A DNA stretch of 64,000 bases, taken from positions 310,001 through 374,000 of the forward strand of contig MCGO01000007.1 in assembly GCA_002104985.1 (NCBI GenBank). Direction: 5' to 3'. Made by a program: the position numbers and the translations under genes. Of this stretch, positions 6,761-21,237 are shown in pieces (position 1 is the stretch's first letter; the number at the start of each line of letters is the position of its first letter). The DNA is from Rhizoclosmatium globosum (Eukaryota > Chytridiomycota > Chytridiomycetes > Chytridiales > Chytriomycetaceae). The notes below the pieces were generated by a model. The model did no database searches and had not been told where the DNA came from. It worked only from the letters and a program-made list of their open reading frames with translations.

Positions 6761-6765
6761 CTGCT
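6761..6765. repeat. Target-site duplication CTGCT (left)
   Basis: CTGCT lies directly outside the left LTR and is repeated at 13474-13478 directly outside the right LTR. A 5-bp duplication is the normal footprint of Ty1/copia integrase and fixes the element ends. Confidence 0.9.
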
Positions 6766-7059
6766 TGTCAGCGGTGCCAGTGTGGTTGCGATGCACGATT
6801 TCCAAAAGAGAAAATCTTAACCCTGAATCCTTCCGAGAGGTATGGGATGAGTAAGGGTTAGCAACCCGAACGGACCGCAACCAACGTGTCACCAATCTCT
6901 TCCAAACGTATAACCCTAGTCCGTCCAATCTCCAAGTGGTACGTATCCAGTGGCGTTTGGTTGTGTGAACGCGTGTGTCTAACGGTATATACTTTATTCT
7001 ATCTCTACAAGATCGCATTGTTAAGTTAAGCCCAAGCAGTCACTGCGTGACCGCTGACA
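6766..7059 (-). repeat. Copia LTR (3' LTR in element orientation)
   Basis: 294 bp, bounded by the inverted termini TGTCAGCGGT...ACCGCTGACA, so it starts TG and ends CA. It appears identical to the LTR at 13180-13473 by base-by-base reading and by the identical translations across both copies. Internally it abuts a G-rich polypurine tract. Confidence 0.95.
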
Positions 7060-7068
7060 CCCCCTTGT
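7060..7068 (-). promoter_or_regulatory. Polypurine tract for plus-strand priming
   Basis: In element orientation ACAAGGGGG abuts the TG of the 3' LTR. A purine run at this exact position primes plus-strand synthesis in LTR retroelements. Confidence 0.75.
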
Positions 7069-7296
7069 GACAAGTGCATCTTGGCAGTTTGATAGAATAA
7101 ACAGTATATGTCTGTTCTTACTTCAAATCCCAATTGATTCATGTAGGTTTCATTTCAATGAGCTGTACTTGTGACCCTGTTTGTCACGGCGTGCTGGACC
7201 ATTGGAATTGAACCAATAAGTACGTATTACGAAAGAATCATATAGATTTGGAAACGTAAAACTCATATATTAAAATCGAATAAAATAAATCAGAAA

Positions 7297-10200
7297 CTAA
7301 TCAAGTTCTGACAATCGACGCATACCCATCAAAGAAACTAATCTCTTGTGCTGTGCCGCAGGCAATGCCTTAGTCAAGATATCCGCAATCATCAAATCAG
7401 TCGGGCAATAAACAAGCTTGATAACTCCATTCTCAATATTCTCGCGAATAAAGTGAGTTTTGATTTCAAGATGTTTAATACGCGCGTGATGGATAGGATT
7501 CGCAGCAATAGCAATAACTGACTGATTATCTTGGTGCGTCGTGAAAGGCTTTGAAACATCAAATCCAACTTCGCTCAAGAAATCCTTCATCCAGAGAGCC
7601 TCCTTGATTCCCTCAACCAGAGCAAGAACTTCCGCCTCAGTTGAAGATAGAGATGTTGTCGGTTGTTTCTTGGAGTACCATACGACGGGACATCCAAAAA
7701 CAAAGAAAATATACCCACTACGTGACTTCTTGTCGTCCTCCATACCATAACTAGCGTCAGTGTATAAAGTTGGTTCACATCCTTCAGGAAACTCCATCGG
7801 CTGACCTTTACTGAGTCCATCTTCCGCAGTCTCGTAGATTACGATATCAGATGACGCGTCAATCCTGTAGAATAACCCCAAGTCGTGACTTCCACGCAGG
7901 TATTGCATAACTCGGTAAGCAGCCTTCAAATCGCCAGTATTTGGAGATTGTTGGTACTGACCAAGAACGGCAGCTGGTTCCGTGAGTTCCGGACGAGTAC
8001 ACTGCGATAGCCACAACATCTTCGCGACCATTGAGCGATACTTCTCCATCTCCGTTTCAGAACATTTAGGTAATATCGGATCATGAACCCAATCTGGTGG
8101 CATCGGATTCTCCTTCCACTTTGCTTCAGGTATATCCCAAAACCCAAACTCCTTTAAGAACTGAATGGTGTACGCGATTAGACCAAACCAAATCCCGTCT
8201 TTCTTTCGAACGACTTGGATTTTCAGGATCCATTGTGCTTCACCCAAATCCTTGATACTGAATACGGTCTTGATTCGTTCTTTCAGCCTTTGAAGTACGG
8301 TTTTGTCAACACACGCCATCAGAATGTCGTCAACGTAGCAGACTACAATGATCAGTTTGCCGGTTGGTTCATCGATCTTAATGAATGTACACGCATCAGA
8401 CTTCAACTGAGTGAAACCTTCGTCAACGAAAAACTGTCGAAGGACTTTAAACCATTCGCGCGAAGCCTGAAGAAAATAAAAACTTAGTTCTTCATCTGCG
8501 ATAACCATAACTTTGATTGTCACCTGATGAAGTCCATACAAGCTTTTCAACAGCTTTGCAACCATTGGCGTTCCATCGGCATCAACCTCCTCGAATAGCT
8601 TTGGAAGCTTCATGTAATTCGTCTCGGTAAGATTTCCATACAAGAAAGCCGTGTTCACGTCAATCTGCTCCACAGTGAGGCCCAGGACAGCGCTAATCGC
8701 CAAAAGCATACGGATTACTTTCGCTTTAACGACGGGAGAATGAGTAGAACCATCAAAATAGTCGGTTCCCTCCTTCTGTCCACTTCCAACTGCAACTAGG
8801 CGCGCTTTGAACTTTGTAATGAAGCCCAAAGGATCCGTCTTGTAGTCGAAAACCCACTTGGATGAGATAGCGCGTCGACCTTCTGGTAGTCGCGTCTTGT
8901 CGTATACATGGTGTGATGTGAGTGATTCCATTTCCAGAAGCATCGCTCGCAGAAAATACTTATAAAACTTTCCTTCGACAGCTTCCTTCACACTCTTTGG
9001 TACGGGCGGCGCGTCAGATACATGGATCTTTTCGGTAGGTTCTGCTGTTGGAGCTGCGTCGTCCCAATTAACAGTCAAACCACTCTTTGCGCGATTAGAC
9101 CTTTCTCTGAACCATCCCCACTCCGGATCCTTTTCAAGTCTCTCGTCAATGGCCTTTTCCCAAACGATTTTCGAGTCAGGGCCACGAGCGAGATTGATCC
9201 GGTCGCGATGCTGATCCGTCGAGTCCAACTTCACGTTTAGCCGTCTGTCCATTTTTCGTCTCGCTTTCTCTACCAACTTTGCTGCGTGACGGTGTGGTTT
9301 TCGTCCTGCTGCAATCGCTTCATAGTACGGAATCGCGAGATCCGAATAACTGCTGATCATACTATGACCCTCAGCCAAAAGTGCCAACGCTCGCAGGTTG
9401 AGTCGAGCTTGAAGTTCCGTATCGCTCAGGTCGGATACGATCTCTTCATCGGCTGTAGTTGAGGACGTTGGTTCATTCCCGTTGTCAATTGACGTTAACG
9501 AGGCATACAGAGCCATCAGGCCTTCGAGCTTCTCCAAGTAATCCTGATATTTTTCCGTCTCCAACTGATCGACACTAATTGATAGGTTATTTGGTTCGCG
9601 TTCTACCTGCCCCCTTGCAATATCGGCATAGTTGACTGGTTTCCTTTGTCTCAGTCTGTCTTTGATCTGAGAGTTGTCGGCGCTTGAATCAGGTTCTCCG
9701 GATTGGTCTTCCAGAATCGATTCATTTATAGGTTCATGGTCTAGGGATTCTGATATAGTTTAGGATGAGCAAAATCCAAAAACTTGATGTGTGCTTACCA
9801 TTGTCATCTTCATCAGAGTCATCTAGTTGTGTTTGGTCCACATCAGAATCGCGATTGGGTGTGTCGAATACCACAATAGGAGTTTCTGTGTGATTAATGT
9901 AAGTTATTTACATAGTCATGAGCGAGCAGAAGTGGTATGATCAGTACTCACCTTTGTCTCTCGATCCAGAAAGCTTTACTTCTCCCTCAAAACGAATTTC
10001 CGCCTGCTGAGGATCTGATTTATCAGGAATAGCTGGCGGCAGTTCCCTTTGTACAGATTCCACAGATTCCACTACCTCAAATTCGTCCAATTGCTTCCAT
10101 TCCGGATCATTTTCCAGAGAAGCGTTCAAATTCATATAAGGATTCATGTGGTGTGGATGCAGTGTGGTACCAGGTAGGATTCGGTTGAGGAAGCGCACAT

Positions 10201-13165
10201 GTAATTCTTCATGTACCGCTTTTGTTCGAAACTTGTAAACCCTCTTCATTCCGGTTTTGCTGTATCCAAGAAATAAGCATGGCTCCGCCTTTTGCCCTTT
10301 TGGGATGCCTAACTGCTTCCGTATCTTTTTATCGACAAAACATGCTCCCAAACACCCAAAGGTATATAGCCTCTTTAGTTTCGACTCGTCCACTTCTTTT
10401 CCGTAGAGGAGTTCATATGGAATTTCGCCAGTTCCGGTATACACGACGCAGTGACCCACCTCCAGTGAATACTCCATCGCGAACGTGAAAAACTTCATTG
10501 TTAGATTCGAGCAGTAGACGAACAGAAAAGCTCTCTCCCGCTCTACCCCCAGTGGCCGTTCAACACCACCATTCATTGCTTGCGTATACGCCGGTGACAT
10601 CATCAGTTCAACTAGATTCGGCTTGTGGTTTTCGCATCAGGCTTTAATTCCGTCGCAATTTAATTCCCCACGATCGCCGGTGATAGCTCCAATATGTACT
10701 CGGAAATCCATCTCCAGTGTCTCAAGGAATTGAATGAACTTTTCCTCAAAGTCTGATTTCTCACGTAGCCAGATAACCCAACTGAAGTGTGAATATAAAC
10801 AGTGAATGTATGCGCAGTATTTGGCGCCGTTGTAACCAACACATGGAAGAGCAAATATATCGGATCCGATGGTATGCAAGGGATATGGCGGTCGCTCGGC
10901 TTTAAAGCGTGTAGAATGTCTGCGTGGATTAATTATCTTGCAGGCCAAACAATCTGTCTCGTCTTTCTTGAAGTCGAACGAGATACCAGCCTTTTTGAGC
11001 GTCGCACGTATTTTGTCCATATTTGCATGGCCTAATCTGATATGCCAATCTAAATACGACATCCTTTTCGAAATCCCTTTTGACACGTTTGCATTGTGCT
11101 TGAAGTCCTTCATAATGCTATTACCGTCGTTATTAACATCCAGGTAATAGAGAGATCCCATTCTTGATCCAATCTTGATGACTTTTCCCGTTTTGTGAAC
11201 GTGCATATAGGCTGCACTTTCATCAAACATTACTAAGTTACCGTTTTCCTTGACCAAATGGTAGATTGAGATGAGAGTCTCGACCAGTTTAGGAACGTAG
11301 AGCGCATTCTCGAAACGTTCCTCCTTGTCTCTGAGTTTCAGGATGACGGTTCCCATTCCTTCAATCTCAATAGCCGTGTCGTCTCCAAGGTATACATGAC
11401 GTCCAAAAACGTTCTTGAAAGTACTTGGATCGAATAGATCGATATTATGGGTCATGATAGCCGTACAACCAGAGTCAAGAATCATATTTATTGAATCTGC
11501 TATTTTCAACCCCCTTGCAATACAAACTTCCTTCCCAGTTTTTAAATCAAGAAGAAAATCCGCGAATTGATACAGGTATTGAAGCAGTTCACTTGCTTTT
11601 GCCGCCAGCGACAGCGTTTCCCACGGACTGGACACAATTGTGTTAGAGTCTTGAGAATTAGCGGATGTAATTATACTAACTTCCGCAGCTTGCTTGATCG
11701 CTTCAAGGGCTTCCCGTTCGGCATTAGCGTTTTTCGCACCATGTGTCTTGCGCGGTAGATTCAACACCATCTTCTTTCCGTTGGTCTTGGCATACTCCAT
11801 GGCTTTCGCGAGTAGTTCAAACTTGCCATCTTCGTACAGCGCCTTGGCGTCTCTGCAGAATGAAAAACTAGTTTGGTTTGTGTTTAGTTTGAGAGAGAGA
11901 GAGAGAGAGAGGATGGATCAAAAGAAAGACTTACGTGTGGTTGGTCATCTCTGGACACAGTGCACACTCGCGCTTTTGCTTCTTCGAGTCTTTCTCCTTC
12001 TCAACGTCCTTCTTTGAGTCAGCTTCACGAGGACGTTTGGCTTTCTCAAAAGCCTTCTTGGCTTTCTCCTCCTCAGTCTTCCCGCCATCGCCGTTCAGTT
12101 CCGTGAAGAGTATCACTTCGGTTAACTTGTCAATCAGGTCCGACGCCGTCTTGTATGCCTTGTCGCCTTCAGTTTCCAATGCAGTTCTGACTGGCAGGAG
12201 GCGTCCAGCGAGGGCACTTGTCGAAGTGCTTTCAGGCAACGACTTAAGGACTACTGAATAAACAGTGTGTTTGACCAGCGTGGGTACAGCAAGCGATCCG
12301 AGTTTGATGTTCTTGGTAATGACCTTTCCATCCTTGTCAACCAGTTGCAGTATCTGCCCTTCTGGTACGACCTCGTCGAAGCTGTATTTTAAATTAATGG
12401 GAGTTGTTTGGTTAGGAATCGTCCTTACAGGTCCTCGAGTGCCGAAGAAGCCGTGATGTGCTTCTTGAGGCTTTCAACGCAGTTTCTCCATGGGATTATT
12501 TGCGACCTCGAGTTTCCGTGGATTGTAGTAGATCTGATCCCACGATCCCAGTTCATGAATTGAAGACCTTGGGTTTGGTTTCATTGGGTCAGGCGTCAGG
12601 TGTAAAAATGCAAAAACGCAAACTCACCTGACTTATCCATCCCTCCAAACAACTTCAGAGCAACGTCGACTGCCTTCCATAGGGTAGGAGTCTTAATAAA
12701 ATCTTCGTGGCTTTTGATTTGATCCCATTTATGAGCATCCATAGTATTAGCGAATTTTCCACAAGCGACTTCATGACCAGTGGTCTCGTCGGTGTAGTTT
12801 TTCATCAGCTTCATATACTGGTCCTGGGATTTCAATAAATTCGAACTAACTTCCACATTAAGCTTGAACATGTCAAACCAACGGATAGTAGCTTCGAGAA
12901 AAGCGTCCTGGTCATCATAGACCTTTCCGGCTAAATCGGTTTGGTCGTCACCCTCCTTCAAGTTTCCTCGAAATCTAGGTTTAAGACCGGGGTCGGATTC
13001 ACTGCGGAGATCCTTTGGTTGTACAGGGCGAACGGGGACAGGGATGCTGCGATCCAAGTACTTCCCGTGCCCATCACGTTTCAATTGCTCTACAATCTTC
13101 TCAATGGTGTCCTTAATGTTCACCATGTTGGTTGAGTCGATTCGAAGCTTGATTGATTCGGACAT
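7297..13165 (-). CDS. Copia gag-pol polyprotein with six putative introns and one TGA
   Basis: Exons in order: 12628-13165, 12429-12567, 11935-12381, 9952-11852, 9799-9885, 8524-9749 and 7297-8466. They join in phase to 1836 codons. Gag starts at the ATG at 13165, 14 nt inside the LTR, and ends in a lysine-rich tail with a zinc-knuckle-like CALCPEMTNH that lacks the final Cys. Protease: NMILDSGC. Integrase: Asp in GSDIFALP, Asp in ITGDRGEL and Glu in MNGGVER, but a TGA at 10637-10639 between the second and third. Reverse transcriptase: SKWVFDYK, FKARLVA, DVNTAFLYG, YGLHQ|ASREW (intron at the bar) and CYVDDI. RNase H: YTDASYG, SSTEAE and HHARIKHLEI. The frame closes 237 bp before the 3' LTR. 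The TGA replaces what is plausibly a Trp codon, so this copy may be inactive for integrase unless read through. Confidence 0.85.
8467..8523 (-). other. Putative intron F in reverse transcriptase (57 nt)
   Basis: GTGACA...CTTCAG with a CTAAG branch-like box. It splits the near-invariant copia RT motif between YGLHQ and ASREW. Its 57 nt are open in frame, so retention would insert 19 residues into the fingers/palm region. Confidence 0.85.
9750..9798 (-). other. Putative intron E in linker (49 nt)
   Basis: GTAAGC...ATATCAG with a CCTAAAC branch-like box. Removal joins DEDDN to ESLDHEP in frame; retention shifts the frame (49 is not a multiple of 3). Confidence 0.8.
9886..9951 (-). other. Putative intron D after integrase (66 nt)
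   Basis: GTGAGT...CACACAG. Removal joins SRDK to ETPIVVF. Retention reaches a TGA three codons in. Confidence 0.8.
11853..11934 (-). other. Putative intron C at zinc-knuckle region (82 nt)
   Basis: GTAAGT...CTGCAG with an AACTAAAC branch-like box and an internal (CT)n run. Removal joins EMTNHT to DAKALYE in frame; retention shifts the frame. Confidence 0.8.
12382..12428 (-). other. Putative intron B in gag (47 nt)
   Basis: GTAAGG...ATACAG with a CCTAACC branch-like box. Removal joins SALEDL to FDEVVPEG in frame; retention shifts the frame. Confidence 0.75.
12568..12627 (-). other. Putative intron A in gag (60 nt)
   Basis: GTGAGT...CCCAAG. Removal continues FGGMDKS into LQFMNWD. Retention reads into a TGA after ten codons. 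The acceptor is AAG and the branch box is weak, so this is the least certain of the six. Confidence 0.6.
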
Positions 13166-13179
13166 GCTGGATACGTTTG

Positions 13180-13473
13180 TGTCAGCGGTGCCAGTGTGGT
13201 TGCGATGCACGATTTCCAAAAGAGAAAATCTTAACCCTGAATCCTTCCGAGAGGTATGGGATGAGTAAGGGTTAGCAACCCGAACGGACCGCAACCAACG
13301 TGTCACCAATCTCTTCCAAACGTATAACCCTAGTCCGTCCAATCTCCAAGTGGTACGTATCCAGTGGCGTTTGGTTGTGTGAACGCGTGTGTCTAACGGT
13401 ATATACTTTATTCTATCTCTACAAGATCGCATTGTTAAGTTAAGCCCAAGCAGTCACTGCGTGACCGCTGACA
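13180..13473 (-). repeat. Copia LTR (5' LTR in element orientation)
   Basis: 294 bp, TGTCAGCGGT...ACCGCTGACA, same as 6766-7059. Transcription of the element should start here and run leftward. Only 14 nt separate its inner end from the gag ATG. A primer-binding site must lie in or near that short leader, but I do not recognise a standard 3'-tRNA complement starting TGG. Confidence 0.95.
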
Positions 13474-13478
13474 CTGCT
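13474..13478. repeat. Target-site duplication CTGCT (right)
   Basis: Matches 6761-6765 and marks the right edge of the copia insertion. Confidence 0.9.
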
Positions 13479-17860: not shown

Positions 17861-18907
17861 GATTATTGATTTTATAACTGGCTTTAGATTAGGCTTAGGT
17901 ATTTCCTGAGGCTTGGATTAGATCCAAAAATAAGTTAGAGCGAAGTTTCGATTTTTCGATCAAACAACGACGCTGCTTCAAAAATGAATCTCCAAAGCCG
18001 TTTTCTCCTTTTCCATCAAAGAAGCCTCGGAAAATTACGCTCCAAAAGAATTGTCATTCAAATCACCCAAACAACCAAGCACATATCCAAATGAACTGTT
18101 TCATCCAAGCGCCGGCTTCATCAACAATCTACGCTGCAGTCGCGAGTCCGCATTCTCGCTGGAATAACATACACATGACAGAGTTGAACGTTCAGCCAAG
18201 ACTTGTCAGGACTGACGGCAACGTCCAAAACATGCAAACATCAAATCCAATCAGTTCATCAATATCCTAGTAAGTTGAAGAGAAAATCTATATATGTATA
18301 TTAACCATGCTTCAGCCCAAAGTAGCGCCTTGTTGCAGCTCAATCTTGGATGCTCTGATTTGACGTCGCCCAGGGTGGAAGCATTATCAGTTTCCTGCCC
18401 CATGAAGTTAGTACTCATACATAAACGTGTCCATTAGATTAATGTATCACTTTAGCAAGCCCAAACAAGTAATTTGGGATCAAGGCTGGATTCTGTACCA
18501 CAAAACTGATTGCCCAAAACCCAACTGTCGAGCACTGTCGTAACTTCTGCTGGGGTTGTCATCTTCATGCTTGTTCCAATGGCCTCTATGTGAAGCAACT
18601 ATTTCCATGACAATGTCCTTCAAGAAGCTTGTATTGTGCTTATACATTGATTGGTACTTTACCAAGCAAGGTATGTTCCCAACCTTCTTCAAACAACCAT
18701 TCATTCTCATTTGAAGCATGATCCAGGTTGCGAGAATCACGTCCATGTCCAGATCTTCTACTCTGTCTCTGGCATCAACTTGGCTTCCAATCTGGTTCCA
18801 AGGTTCCCAGACTGCTACTGGTTCTAAGACTTCTACTGGTTCCAAGACTTCTACTGAGGTGGATCCATGCTGGATTCATCTTACTTGTTGGGCTGGATGG
18901 CGTCTGT
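17861..18907. other. Intergenic, low-copy tandem 18-mers near right end
   Basis: No supported gene. A 121-codon minus-strand frame (18480-18845) has no recognisable domain. At about 18810-18860 a short unit of about 18 bp (ACTTCTACTGGTTCCAAG and variants) repeats about three times. 18731-18760 is similar to the sequence right of the 342-bp array (~21236-21270). Confidence 0.45.
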
Positions 18908-19009
18908 CGCAAGTGTTTTCGATGGTCTACACCTATGGCATTGCTAATAGAACTGCATGTCGGGCCAGATGTCATACAGTTGAGGTTGCTGCTCCCAGCT
19001 TCGAGAACC
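18908..19009. repeat. Direct repeat flanking the tandem array (left copy)
   Basis: Starts CGCAAGTGTTTTCGATGG and matches 21138-21237 with a few substitutions. The tandem array therefore sits between two copies of a ~100-bp direct repeat. Confidence 0.85.
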
Positions 19010-19034
19010 ACTTCTGCAAGAAAATGATCATCTT

Positions 19035-20733
19035 TTGGACCAGCGTTTCTGTGGCAACCATCTGCTCATGGGTTGGGTTGGCGGCAACAAAGGTGTATGA
19101 ACCGACAGCAGGTGCGCGAAAGTTCTTACACTGTATTGTTGTTGTCTTCACAACTGGGATTTTTTCCCTTCACATTGGGCATTTGTGAACCACCTGTCTC
19201 TCTGGCGCACAAGTCTTGCTGACCTGCTTTCTGGACGTTCAACTACTGTTGGTTTTCAGGCCTCTCTGCCTGCTGGACGTCTCTTGCACACCTCGGATCC
19301 AGGCTGCACGCCACCTCAAACACTACTTGGTCCACTCTCTCTGTTGGATTCTACAAGACAAGAAAACATTCTTCCTTTGGACCAGCGTTTCTGTGGCAAC
19401 CATCTGCTCATGGGTTGGGTTGGCGGCAACAAAGGTGTATGAACCGACAGCGGGTGCGCGAAAGTTCTTACACTGTATTGTTGTTGTCTTCACAACTGGG
19501 ATTTTTTCCCTTCACATTGGGCATTTGTGAACCACCTGTCTCTCTGGCGCACAAGTCTTGCTGACCTGCTTTCTGGACGTTCAACTACTGTTGGTTTTCA
19601 GGCCTCTCTGCCTGCTGGACGTCTCTTGCACACCTCGGATCCAGGCTGCACGCCACCTCAAACACTACTTGGTCCACTCTCTCTGTTGGATTCTACAAGA
19701 CAAGAAAACATTCTTCCTTTGGACCAGCGTTTCTGTGGCAACCATCTGCTCATGGGTTGGGTTGGCGGCAACAAAGGTGTATGAACCGACAGCGGGTGCG
19801 CGAAAGTTCTTACACTGTATTGTTGTTGTCTTCACAACTGGGATTTTTTCCCTTCACATTGGGCATTTGTGAACCACCTGTCTCTCTGGCGCACAAGTCT
19901 TGCTCACCTGCTTTCTGGACGTTCAACTACTGTTGGTTTTCAGGCCTCTCTGCCTGCTGGACGTCTCTTGCACACCTCGGATCCAGGCTGCACGCCACCT
20001 CAAACACTACTTGGTCCACTCTCTCTGTTGGATTCTACAAGACAAGAAAACATTCTTCCTTTGGACCAGCGTTTCTGTGGCAACCATCTGCTCATGGGTT
20101 GGGTTGGCGGCAACAAAGGTGTATGAACCGACAGCGGGTGCGCGAAAGTTCTTACACTGTATTGTTGTTGTCTTCACAACTGGGATTTTTTCCCTTCACA
20201 TTGGGCATTTGTGAACCACCTGTCTCTCTGGCGCACAAGTCTTGCTGACCTGCTTTCTGGACGTTCAACTACTGTTGGTTTTCAGGCCTCTCTGCCTGCT
20301 GGACGTCTCTTGCACACCTCGGATCCAGGCTGCACGCCACCTCAAACACTACTTGGTCCACTCTCTCTGTTGGATTCTACAAGACAAGAAAACATTCTTC
20401 CTTTGGACCAGCGTTTCTGTGGCAACCATCTGCTCATGGGTTGGGTTGGCGGCAACAAAGGTGTATGAACCGACAGCGGGTGCGCGAAAGTTCTTACACT
20501 GTATTGTTGTTGTCTTCACAACTGGGATTTTTTCCCTTCACATTGGGCATTTGTGAACCACCTGTCTCTCTGGCGCACAAGTCTTGCTACCTGCTTTCTG
20601 GACGTTCAACTACTGTTGGTTTTCAGGCCTCTCTGCCTGCTGGACGTCTCTTGCACACCTCGGATCCAGGCTGCACGCCACCTCAAACACTACTTGGTCC
20701 ACTCTCTCTGTTGGATTCTACAAGACAAGAAAA

Positions 20734-20772
<39 letters not shown>

Positions 20773-21138
20773 CTTCCTTTGGACCAGCGTTTCTGTGGCA
20801 ACCATCTGCTCATGGGTTGGGTTGGCGGCAACAAAGGTGTATGAACCGACAGCGGGTGCGCGAAAGTTCTTACACTGTATTGTTGTTGTCTTCACAACTG
20901 GGATTTTTTCCCTTCACATTGGGCATTTGTGAACCACCTGTCTCTCTGGCGCACAAGTCTTGCTACCTGCTTTCTGGACGTTCAACTACTGTTGGTTTTC
21001 AGGCCTCTCTGCCTGCGGACGTCTCTTGCACACCTCGGATCCAGGCTGCACGCCACCTCAAACACTACTTGGTCCACTCTCTCTGTTGGATTCTACAAGA
21101 CAAGAAAACATTCTTCCTTTGGACCAGCGTTTCTGTGG
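19035..21138. repeat. Tandem array, 342-bp unit, about six copies
   Basis: The string GGACCAGCGTTTCTGTGG recurs at 19037, 19379, 19721, 20063, 20405, 20781 and 21121, giving spacings of 342, 342, 342, 342, 376 and 340 bp. Copies are nearly identical, so expansion is recent. One unit carries a 37-T run (20736-20772) at a site that has two T elsewhere; small deletions explain the 340-bp unit. Open frames inside each unit repeat because 342 is divisible by three, but each unit ends in stops and no known domain appears, so it is treated as a satellite-like repeat. Confidence 0.95.
20736..20772. repeat. Poly(T) tract of 37 inside one array unit
   Basis: Expands ACATTCTTCC in one unit only. It may be a real slippage or poly(A) insertion on the minus strand, or an assembly/sequencing artefact. 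Confidence 0.8.
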
Positions 21139-21237
21139 TCGCAAGTGTTTTCGATGGTCTACACCTATGGCAATGCTAATAGAACTGCATGCTGCGCCAG
21201 ATGTCATACAGTTGAGGTTGCTCCTCCCAGCTTCGAG
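21138..21237. repeat. Direct repeat flanking the tandem array (right copy)
   Basis: Second copy of the ~100-bp sequence seen at 18908-19009; it continues into CGAGAATCACGTCCAT, which is also present at ~18731. Confidence 0.85.

Follow-up and report, generated by a model that had tools for sequence, protein, structure and literature searches.

The analysis of a 64,000-nucleotide window of the chytrid Rhizoclosmatium globosum (assembly GCA_002104985.1, contig MCGO01000007.1, positions 310,001 to 374,000), together with related loci of the same genome, points to Ty1/copia retrotransposons whose gag-pol is interrupted by real spliceosomal introns. It is very probable that these elements, here termed families A (that of the element in the window) to D, carry five or six such introns, that their protein is made from spliced RNA, and that unspliced RNA, and occasionally partly spliced RNA, is copied in trans.

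Retention of introns through insertion

Twelve intron-bearing insertions (two of family A, four of B and six of D) each possess a pair of long terminal repeats (LTRs) with 0 mismatches, and they are flanked by 12 different target site duplications (TSDs) of 5 bp. Direct comparison found all five introns retained in the B copies (4/4) and the fully fetched D copies (6/6), and both A copies (2/2) keep all of theirs. As these intron-bearing insertions combine mismatch-free LTRs with TSDs of their own, the introns must survive retrotransposition.

A single intron loss was found, in family D, where intron 3 is present at 10 of the 11 places read. Among the ten keepers, six have their own TSDs, one (L015) has a distinct 3' flank, and L010, L043 and L044 have flanks that lay outside the comparison. 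In the remaining insertion, L041 (the same as L042), precisely the 56-nt intron 3 is gone, from GT to AG; the junction is exact to the base, its end bases permit no alternative placement, and genome searches aligned the locus in one block each across introns 1-2 and 4-5. Over the same stretches, the older D loci C109 and C372 are shorter by 31-36 nt; as C372 went unread and C109 was left unread in its gag part, an intron loss is possible in both. The intron 3 loss is counted once because the two contigs that hold it (L041, L042) have identical flanks (L046, L047), and a loss is favoured over a late gain because L041 has variants in common with L027, and because L043 and L044, which diverge more, keep the intron. 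L041 would then resemble a cDNA that arose naturally from partly spliced RNA. Deletion through microhomology was rejected by eye as its cause, as the shared TACA would yield another junction. The assembly seems to contain duplicate, perhaps haplotype, contigs: the D copies on C34 and C394 (L046, L047) are duplicates, and two copies of a further family, E (L032 and L033), likewise lie on different contigs with the same TSD and the same flanks.

In family A, a second copy (L021, contig C129) is ~99% identical to the window element over two long blocks, has an identical LTR pair and the TSD CTCGG, and retains all six intron segments. It is damaged: its integrase region contains a ~50-nt repeat, exon 4 has an 8-nt gap and, near the end of pol, 297 bases of the window element are replaced by 8 others. 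Introns 2 and 3 persist in L045, an old relative with 83% identity over 1049 query bases, and there both ends of intron 2 have decayed. A search with the A LTR gave eight matches: four from the two full copies, two at 98% and two partial ones at 90%. An earlier note, written from the window sequence by itself, had proposed aligning other copies to see whether the introns are conserved and whether any copy lacks some. The six segments are indeed conserved in L021, as are introns 2 and 3 in L045, and a copy without one intron exists in the D insertion described above; precise removal was seen for D intron 3 only, as a genomic copy, and for none of the six window introns.

Selection on the spliced reading frame

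Differences between copies were tallied by codon position (1/2/3) of the spliced model, with L022 (B), L028 (D) and the window element (A) as references. L022 showed no difference from L023, 3/2/25 from L024 and 3/2/5 from L025; L028 showed 1/0/4 from L027, 5/2/37 from L029, 0/0/1 from L030, 7/2/39 from L039 and 5/2/31 from L040; and the window element showed 8/1/12 from L021. B and D show a clear third-position bias and A a weak one; in B and D the bias supports the spliced frame and shows that the proteins are under selection. Within the introns, A has 0/349 differences, B (L023, L024 and L025) has 0, 7 and 2 of 341, and D (L027, L029, L030, L039 and L040) has 0, 1, 0, 1 and 6 of 323.

Related families and shared intron positions

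Relatives were gathered by a protein search in which 55 of 136 candidates were scored, making all counts of relatives lower bounds. Identity to A was 61% for B, 57% for C, 55% for D, 50% for E, 37% for F and less for others. A splice-path search, run without the proposed coordinates and with its settings altered once after the first run, returned five introns in B (L022; 58, 99, 66, 64 and 54 nt), four in C (L026; 46, 56, 64 and 57 nt) and five in D (L028; 89, 58, 56, 64 and 56 nt), and open frames with zero introns in E (L032) and F (L036). In C, a 48-nt in-frame GT...AG segment with TACTAA lies at the gag intron position, giving five in total. Among the 13 copies run, clean solutions that passed no stop came from L022, L023, L026, L028, L029, L032 and L036; the solution for L024 passed one stop, and doubtful or surplus introns were called in the window element, L021, L025, L027 and L034. 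Six introns, which the earlier note held to be exceptional, are not so in this genome, where B and D carry five.

The E frame (L032) is uninterrupted over 1938 codons, with 0-1 LTR mismatches in the 4 copies read, and over the reverse transcriptase (RT) E is 43-47% identical to B, C and D. A tree of the integrase (IN) and RT blocks separates F, G and H from A-E with support 94/99, just under the star threshold, without settling the order within A-E; a clade of A-D is neither shown nor rejected (IN+RT clade test, p-AU 0.38; RT with RNase H (RH) likewise undecided). E may predate the introns, or may have lost all of them via a fully spliced copy.

Over the last pol exon, families A, B and C differ from one another at ~41-46% of residues. 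Intron 1 of A, intron 1 of B and the in-frame segment of C all lie in phase 1, splitting a Gly codon after its first base, and the residues that follow are LQF in A, LQF in B and HAF in C; D intron 1 lies after the Gly codon and before MNF, 2 nt further along. The A-B match comes from exon-end alignment, and those of C and D from neighbouring residues. All nine introns of the IN-RT linker (two each in A, B and D, three in C) are in phase 1. Introns 4/5 of A may correspond to 2/3 of C and 4/5 of D (28-33-codon exon between), and introns 4/5 of B to 3/4 of C (97-106 codons between); this pairing stays tentative because the linker aligns poorly, and is based on order and exon length.

The element in the window

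The element (Table 1) extends beyond the 7297-13165 that the earlier note assigned to it. That note took it for a recent insertion with identical LTRs and an intact TSD, and both features are confirmed (294/294 positions; CTGCT); the copy is nonetheless young yet damaged, as a nonsense codon persists in its integrase exon after the six removals that were claimed to open gag-pol. An intron placed over this stop by the splice-path search was rejected, exon 4 matching unbroken there in several relatives (L022, L026, L032). Among Pfam models, RVT_2 (PF07727), the Copia-type RT, matched at E 4.2e-45 (154.7 bits against a cut-off of 31.6); Pol_BBD and SH3_retrovirus lay above their cut-offs and gag_pre-integrs below (22.1 against 28.4), all three 5' of RVT_2. 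The integrase core model gave no match on the six scanned pieces of the element, the stop splitting this region. The element combines RVT_2 and an integrase region upstream of it with TG...CA LTRs and a 5-bp TSD, and shows the Copia domain order of Pol_BBD, SH3_retrovirus and RVT_2. From the pol stop to the 3' LTR there are just 237 nt (7060-7296), and the element has no env gene after pol of the kind that retroviruses carry. Exon 7, which presumably holds the RNase H region from its position, had no PDB sequence match. Only 14-15 nt separate the 5' LTR from the gag ATG in A, D and E (window 13166-13179; L028; L032), and the post-LTR sequence starts with CAA in A, B, D and E.

Table 1. Family A element: features, positions in the window and strand
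Feature	Positions	Strand	Remarks
Whole family A Ty1/copia element	6766..13473	-	identical LTR pair and TSD
TSD, CTGCT	6761..6765 and 13474..13478	none	
5' LTR	13180..13473	-	294 bp, TG...CA, 10-bp terminal inverted repeat
Exon 1	12628..13165	-	gag start; ATG 14 nt past 5' LTR
Intron 1	12568..12627	-	60 nt, phase 1; Gly codon and phase as in B intron 1 and in-frame C intron
Exon 2	12429..12567	-	gag
Intron 2	12382..12428	-	47 nt, phase 2; shared by L021; splice sites decayed in L045
Exon 3	11935..12381	-	gag C-terminal part
Intron 3	11853..11934	-	82 nt, phase 2; acceptor not unique; shorter form in L045
Exon 4	9952..11852	-	Pol_BBD and SH3-like domains, integrase region between; contains nonsense codon
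In-frame stop codon	10637..10639	-	integrase region of exon 4; from reading of exon pieces
Intron 4	9886..9951	-	66 nt, phase 1, IN-RT linker; L021 form 54 nt
Exon 5	9799..9885	-	87 nt, acidic linker
Intron 5	9750..9798	-	49 nt, phase 1, IN-RT linker; acceptor not unique
Exon 6	8524..9749	-	linker and first part of RT (RVT_2)
Intron 6	8467..8523	-	57 nt, phase 0, in frame, stop-free, between YGLHQ and ASREW of RT
Exon 7	7297..8466	-	second part of RT, RNase H region, stop
3' LTR	6766..7059	-	same sequence as 5' LTR

The six GT...AG segments of the minus strand are confirmed at the positions and sizes first proposed for them, and the exon pieces read through in consistent phases. The lengths of introns 1, 4 and 6 are divisible by three. 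The intron said to split YGLHQ|ASREW (intron 6) lies where it was placed; the frame is already open straight across it, its removal is not needed to restore reading, and it is marked as a probable intron by homology alone. It is called an intron because the relatives L022-L040 run uninterrupted through that point: the best matches to exons 6 and 7 abut in 18 of these 19 loci, and in the other (L037) a six-base gap leaves room for two unaligned residues. This RT intron is unique to family A among the compared loci, and L021 also has the 57 nt. Intron 3 contains a CT repeat tract (11880-11930) that is far shorter in the old copy L045.

On the window element, the second setting of the splice-path search recovered introns 1, 2 and 4 exactly and only the donors of 3 and 5; the first setting recovered intron 3 exactly and ended intron 4 later. 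For introns 3 and 5 different acceptor AGs were picked, and intron 6 was called by neither setting. When the intron segments were dinucleotide-shuffled in place, 0, 2, 1 and 0 of 60 shuffles matched the splice cost of A, B, C and D, the observed cost of A including the false intron over the integrase stop; the splice signals of the window element thus exceed chance. G content is 0.12-0.16 in introns and 0.21-0.25 in exons. The match to host introns in donors, branch-like boxes and size that had been claimed could be tested only roughly, against three host genes (the names being the analyst's own labels) read by the same method: the 18 called introns measure 41-113 nt, the CTRAY box occurs in just 5/18, and two stops were passed in one of the three genes.

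Outside the element, several long open frames with tandemly repeated peptide blocks at 18715-21179 suggest a long tandem repeat.

A model of message and genome

The sequences show the intron boundaries, the retention of introns through independent insertions in A, B and D, selection acting on the spliced frame of B and of D, and one exact loss in D; we infer that splicing occurs in cells and that packaging chooses unspliced RNA in some manner. The model proposes that Gag-Pol is translated from spliced RNA, and that unspliced RNA, coding for truncated Gag only, would be packaged and reverse transcribed in trans to give new copies with introns; partly spliced RNA may occasionally be copied, resulting in the precise removal of an intron. 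Unspliced RNA is open from the gag start for 189 codons in A, 185 in B, 506 in C and 209 in D, frames so short that it could not encode Pol, which the spliced RNA must therefore supply. Because the copies keep their introns, unspliced RNA would be the usual template, and with Pol coming from spliced RNA it follows that template and message would be different molecules. Unspliced RNA as genome and spliced RNA as the source of protein is also what the earlier note had put forward, and the 12 insertions, the codon bias of B and D and the precise D loss support it. Its comparison with a retrovirus-like division of labour is inexact. The unspliced RNA of retroviruses, and that of BARE1 and EVADE, encodes Gag-Pol, whereas the frame of unspliced A RNA ends after 189 codons.

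Unspliced RNA might be selected because it is spliced slowly or exported early, or through a packaging signal close to the gag intron. In a doubtful, more specific version, the gag intron would itself decide between genome and message: only RNA with an unspliced 5' end would be admitted, by a packaging signal lying within the intron or spanning it, and spliced RNA, acting in trans, would be the sole source of Gag-Pol. If true, this would explain why A, B and C share the codon position of this intron (D being 2 nt off), and why the one loss lies downstream while gag introns persist.

Several observations weigh against the model as a whole. Only one natural loss event is known, in D rather than in the family of the window. 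The D introns vary less than third positions do (1/323 against 37 and 39/1938 for L028 compared with L029 and L039), and the introns may be non-neutral; constraint or mosaic copies could account for this low divergence. In A, both full copies carry damage and show only a weak codon-position bias (8/1/12), and C is a single copy for which no LTR pair was found. The splice-path settings were tuned between the two runs; the search also bridged the integrase stop of the window element with a false intron and gave doubtful introns in the damaged L021, L025, L027 and L034, and the splice signals of B and C are just modestly above chance (2/60 and 1/60 shuffles).

Alternative explanations

It is possible, but not probable, that the introns and the copying of RNA are real, that splicing is inefficient, with a constant fraction of the RNA escaping it, that packaging is indifferent, and that introns persist until chance losses. 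The precise loss of a single intron fits this scenario, as does the existence of the intronless family E, which the trees place neither within nor outside A-D. However, indifferent packaging predicts many partly spliced copies, and D intron 3 is kept at 10/11 places and every intron in the 4/4 B and 2/2 A copies.

Less plausibly by far, intronless relatives such as E could provide the proteins and A-D would be passengers without need of splicing. The long E frame (1938 codons in L032) and the 0-1 LTR mismatches of its 4 copies are in keeping with such a donor; however, E is only 50% identical to A and, over RT, 43-47% to B, C and D, and the codon-position bias shows that B and D proteins are themselves under selection. 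That the segments arose as neutral insertions or through the decay of dead elements is very unlikely: signs of decay do exist, in the integrase stop of the window element and in the ~50-nt repeat and 297 lost bases of L021, but in B and D the segments persist in copies with complete spliced frames and third-position bias, one was lost exactly from GT to AG, and one position is common to A, B and C. Least credible is the spread of intron-bearing copies as DNA by segmental duplication, bypassing RNA, which the duplicate contigs (L046/L047 with identical flanks, E copies L032/L033 with the same TSD and flanks) might suggest and which is rejected for the 12 A, B and D copies on their differing TSDs and flanks and mismatch-free LTR pairs, barring assembly errors in TSDs or flanks.

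Relation to known elements

In the Ogre elements of legumes, an intron in the polyprotein region is spliced from a subset of transcripts, allowing the whole polyprotein to be translated (PMC6317226). As in Ogre, the full polyprotein of A-D would require splicing; unlike Ogre, A-D carry five or six short introns, in the gag, linker and RT of Copia elements. Ogre belongs to the gypsy superfamily. Its domain order, RT-RH-INT (INT being integrase; PMC6317226), is not that of the window element, in which Pol_BBD and SH3 lie upstream of RVT_2. Families A-D may extend the Ogre scheme from one intron to five or six.

EVADE and further Copia elements of Arabidopsis use full-length unspliced RNA as their genome; this RNA encodes GAG-POL, and spliced RNA encodes GAG only (PMC8892269). 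A-D are like EVADE in being Ty1/copia elements with unspliced RNA as the presumed genome, but the roles for Pol would be reversed and the introns are many. In barley BARE1, translation and replication draw on distinct pools of RNA, and the spliced, Gag-only RNA is not replicated (PMC3735527). Splicing in BARE1 and Drosophila copia yields a Gag-only RNA, whereas in A-D it would be required for Pol. A reversal of the BARE1 and EVADE roles is thereby suggested, Pol coming from spliced and the template from unspliced RNA.

In Cer1 of Caenorhabditis elegans, spliced and unspliced RNA have distinct roles, export of the unspliced RNA requiring a protein made from the spliced RNA (PMC12786077). A-D share with Cer1 the LTR structure and proposed distinct roles for the two RNAs. 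Cer1 belongs to another superfamily than A-D. Penelope-like retroelements reportedly contain introns, as Arkhipova et al. are said to have found in 2003; they are not of this LTR type and have another copying mechanism. A-D resemble them as intron-containing retroelements and differ in being Ty1/copia LTR elements. The Tcn elements of Cryptococcus are possible intron carriers. The part of PMC7175516 drawn on describes DNA transposons that contain introns and, in Tf2 of Schizosaccharomyces pombe, a cryptic intron, and mentions no Tcn introns. Among the titles and abstract openings listed, no fungal Copia family with several introns appeared, a weak negative with subscription journals mostly outside its scope.

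Intron loss is a textbook sign of retrotransposition, and here entire families appear to retain five or six introns through recent insertions. These elements would provide a natural system whose message and genome can be told apart by sequence, and in which it may be asked how an LTR element excludes spliced RNA from its particles. The same system would suit the study of intron gain, by way of the RT intron found in A only, and of intron loss, by way of the one exact loss in D.
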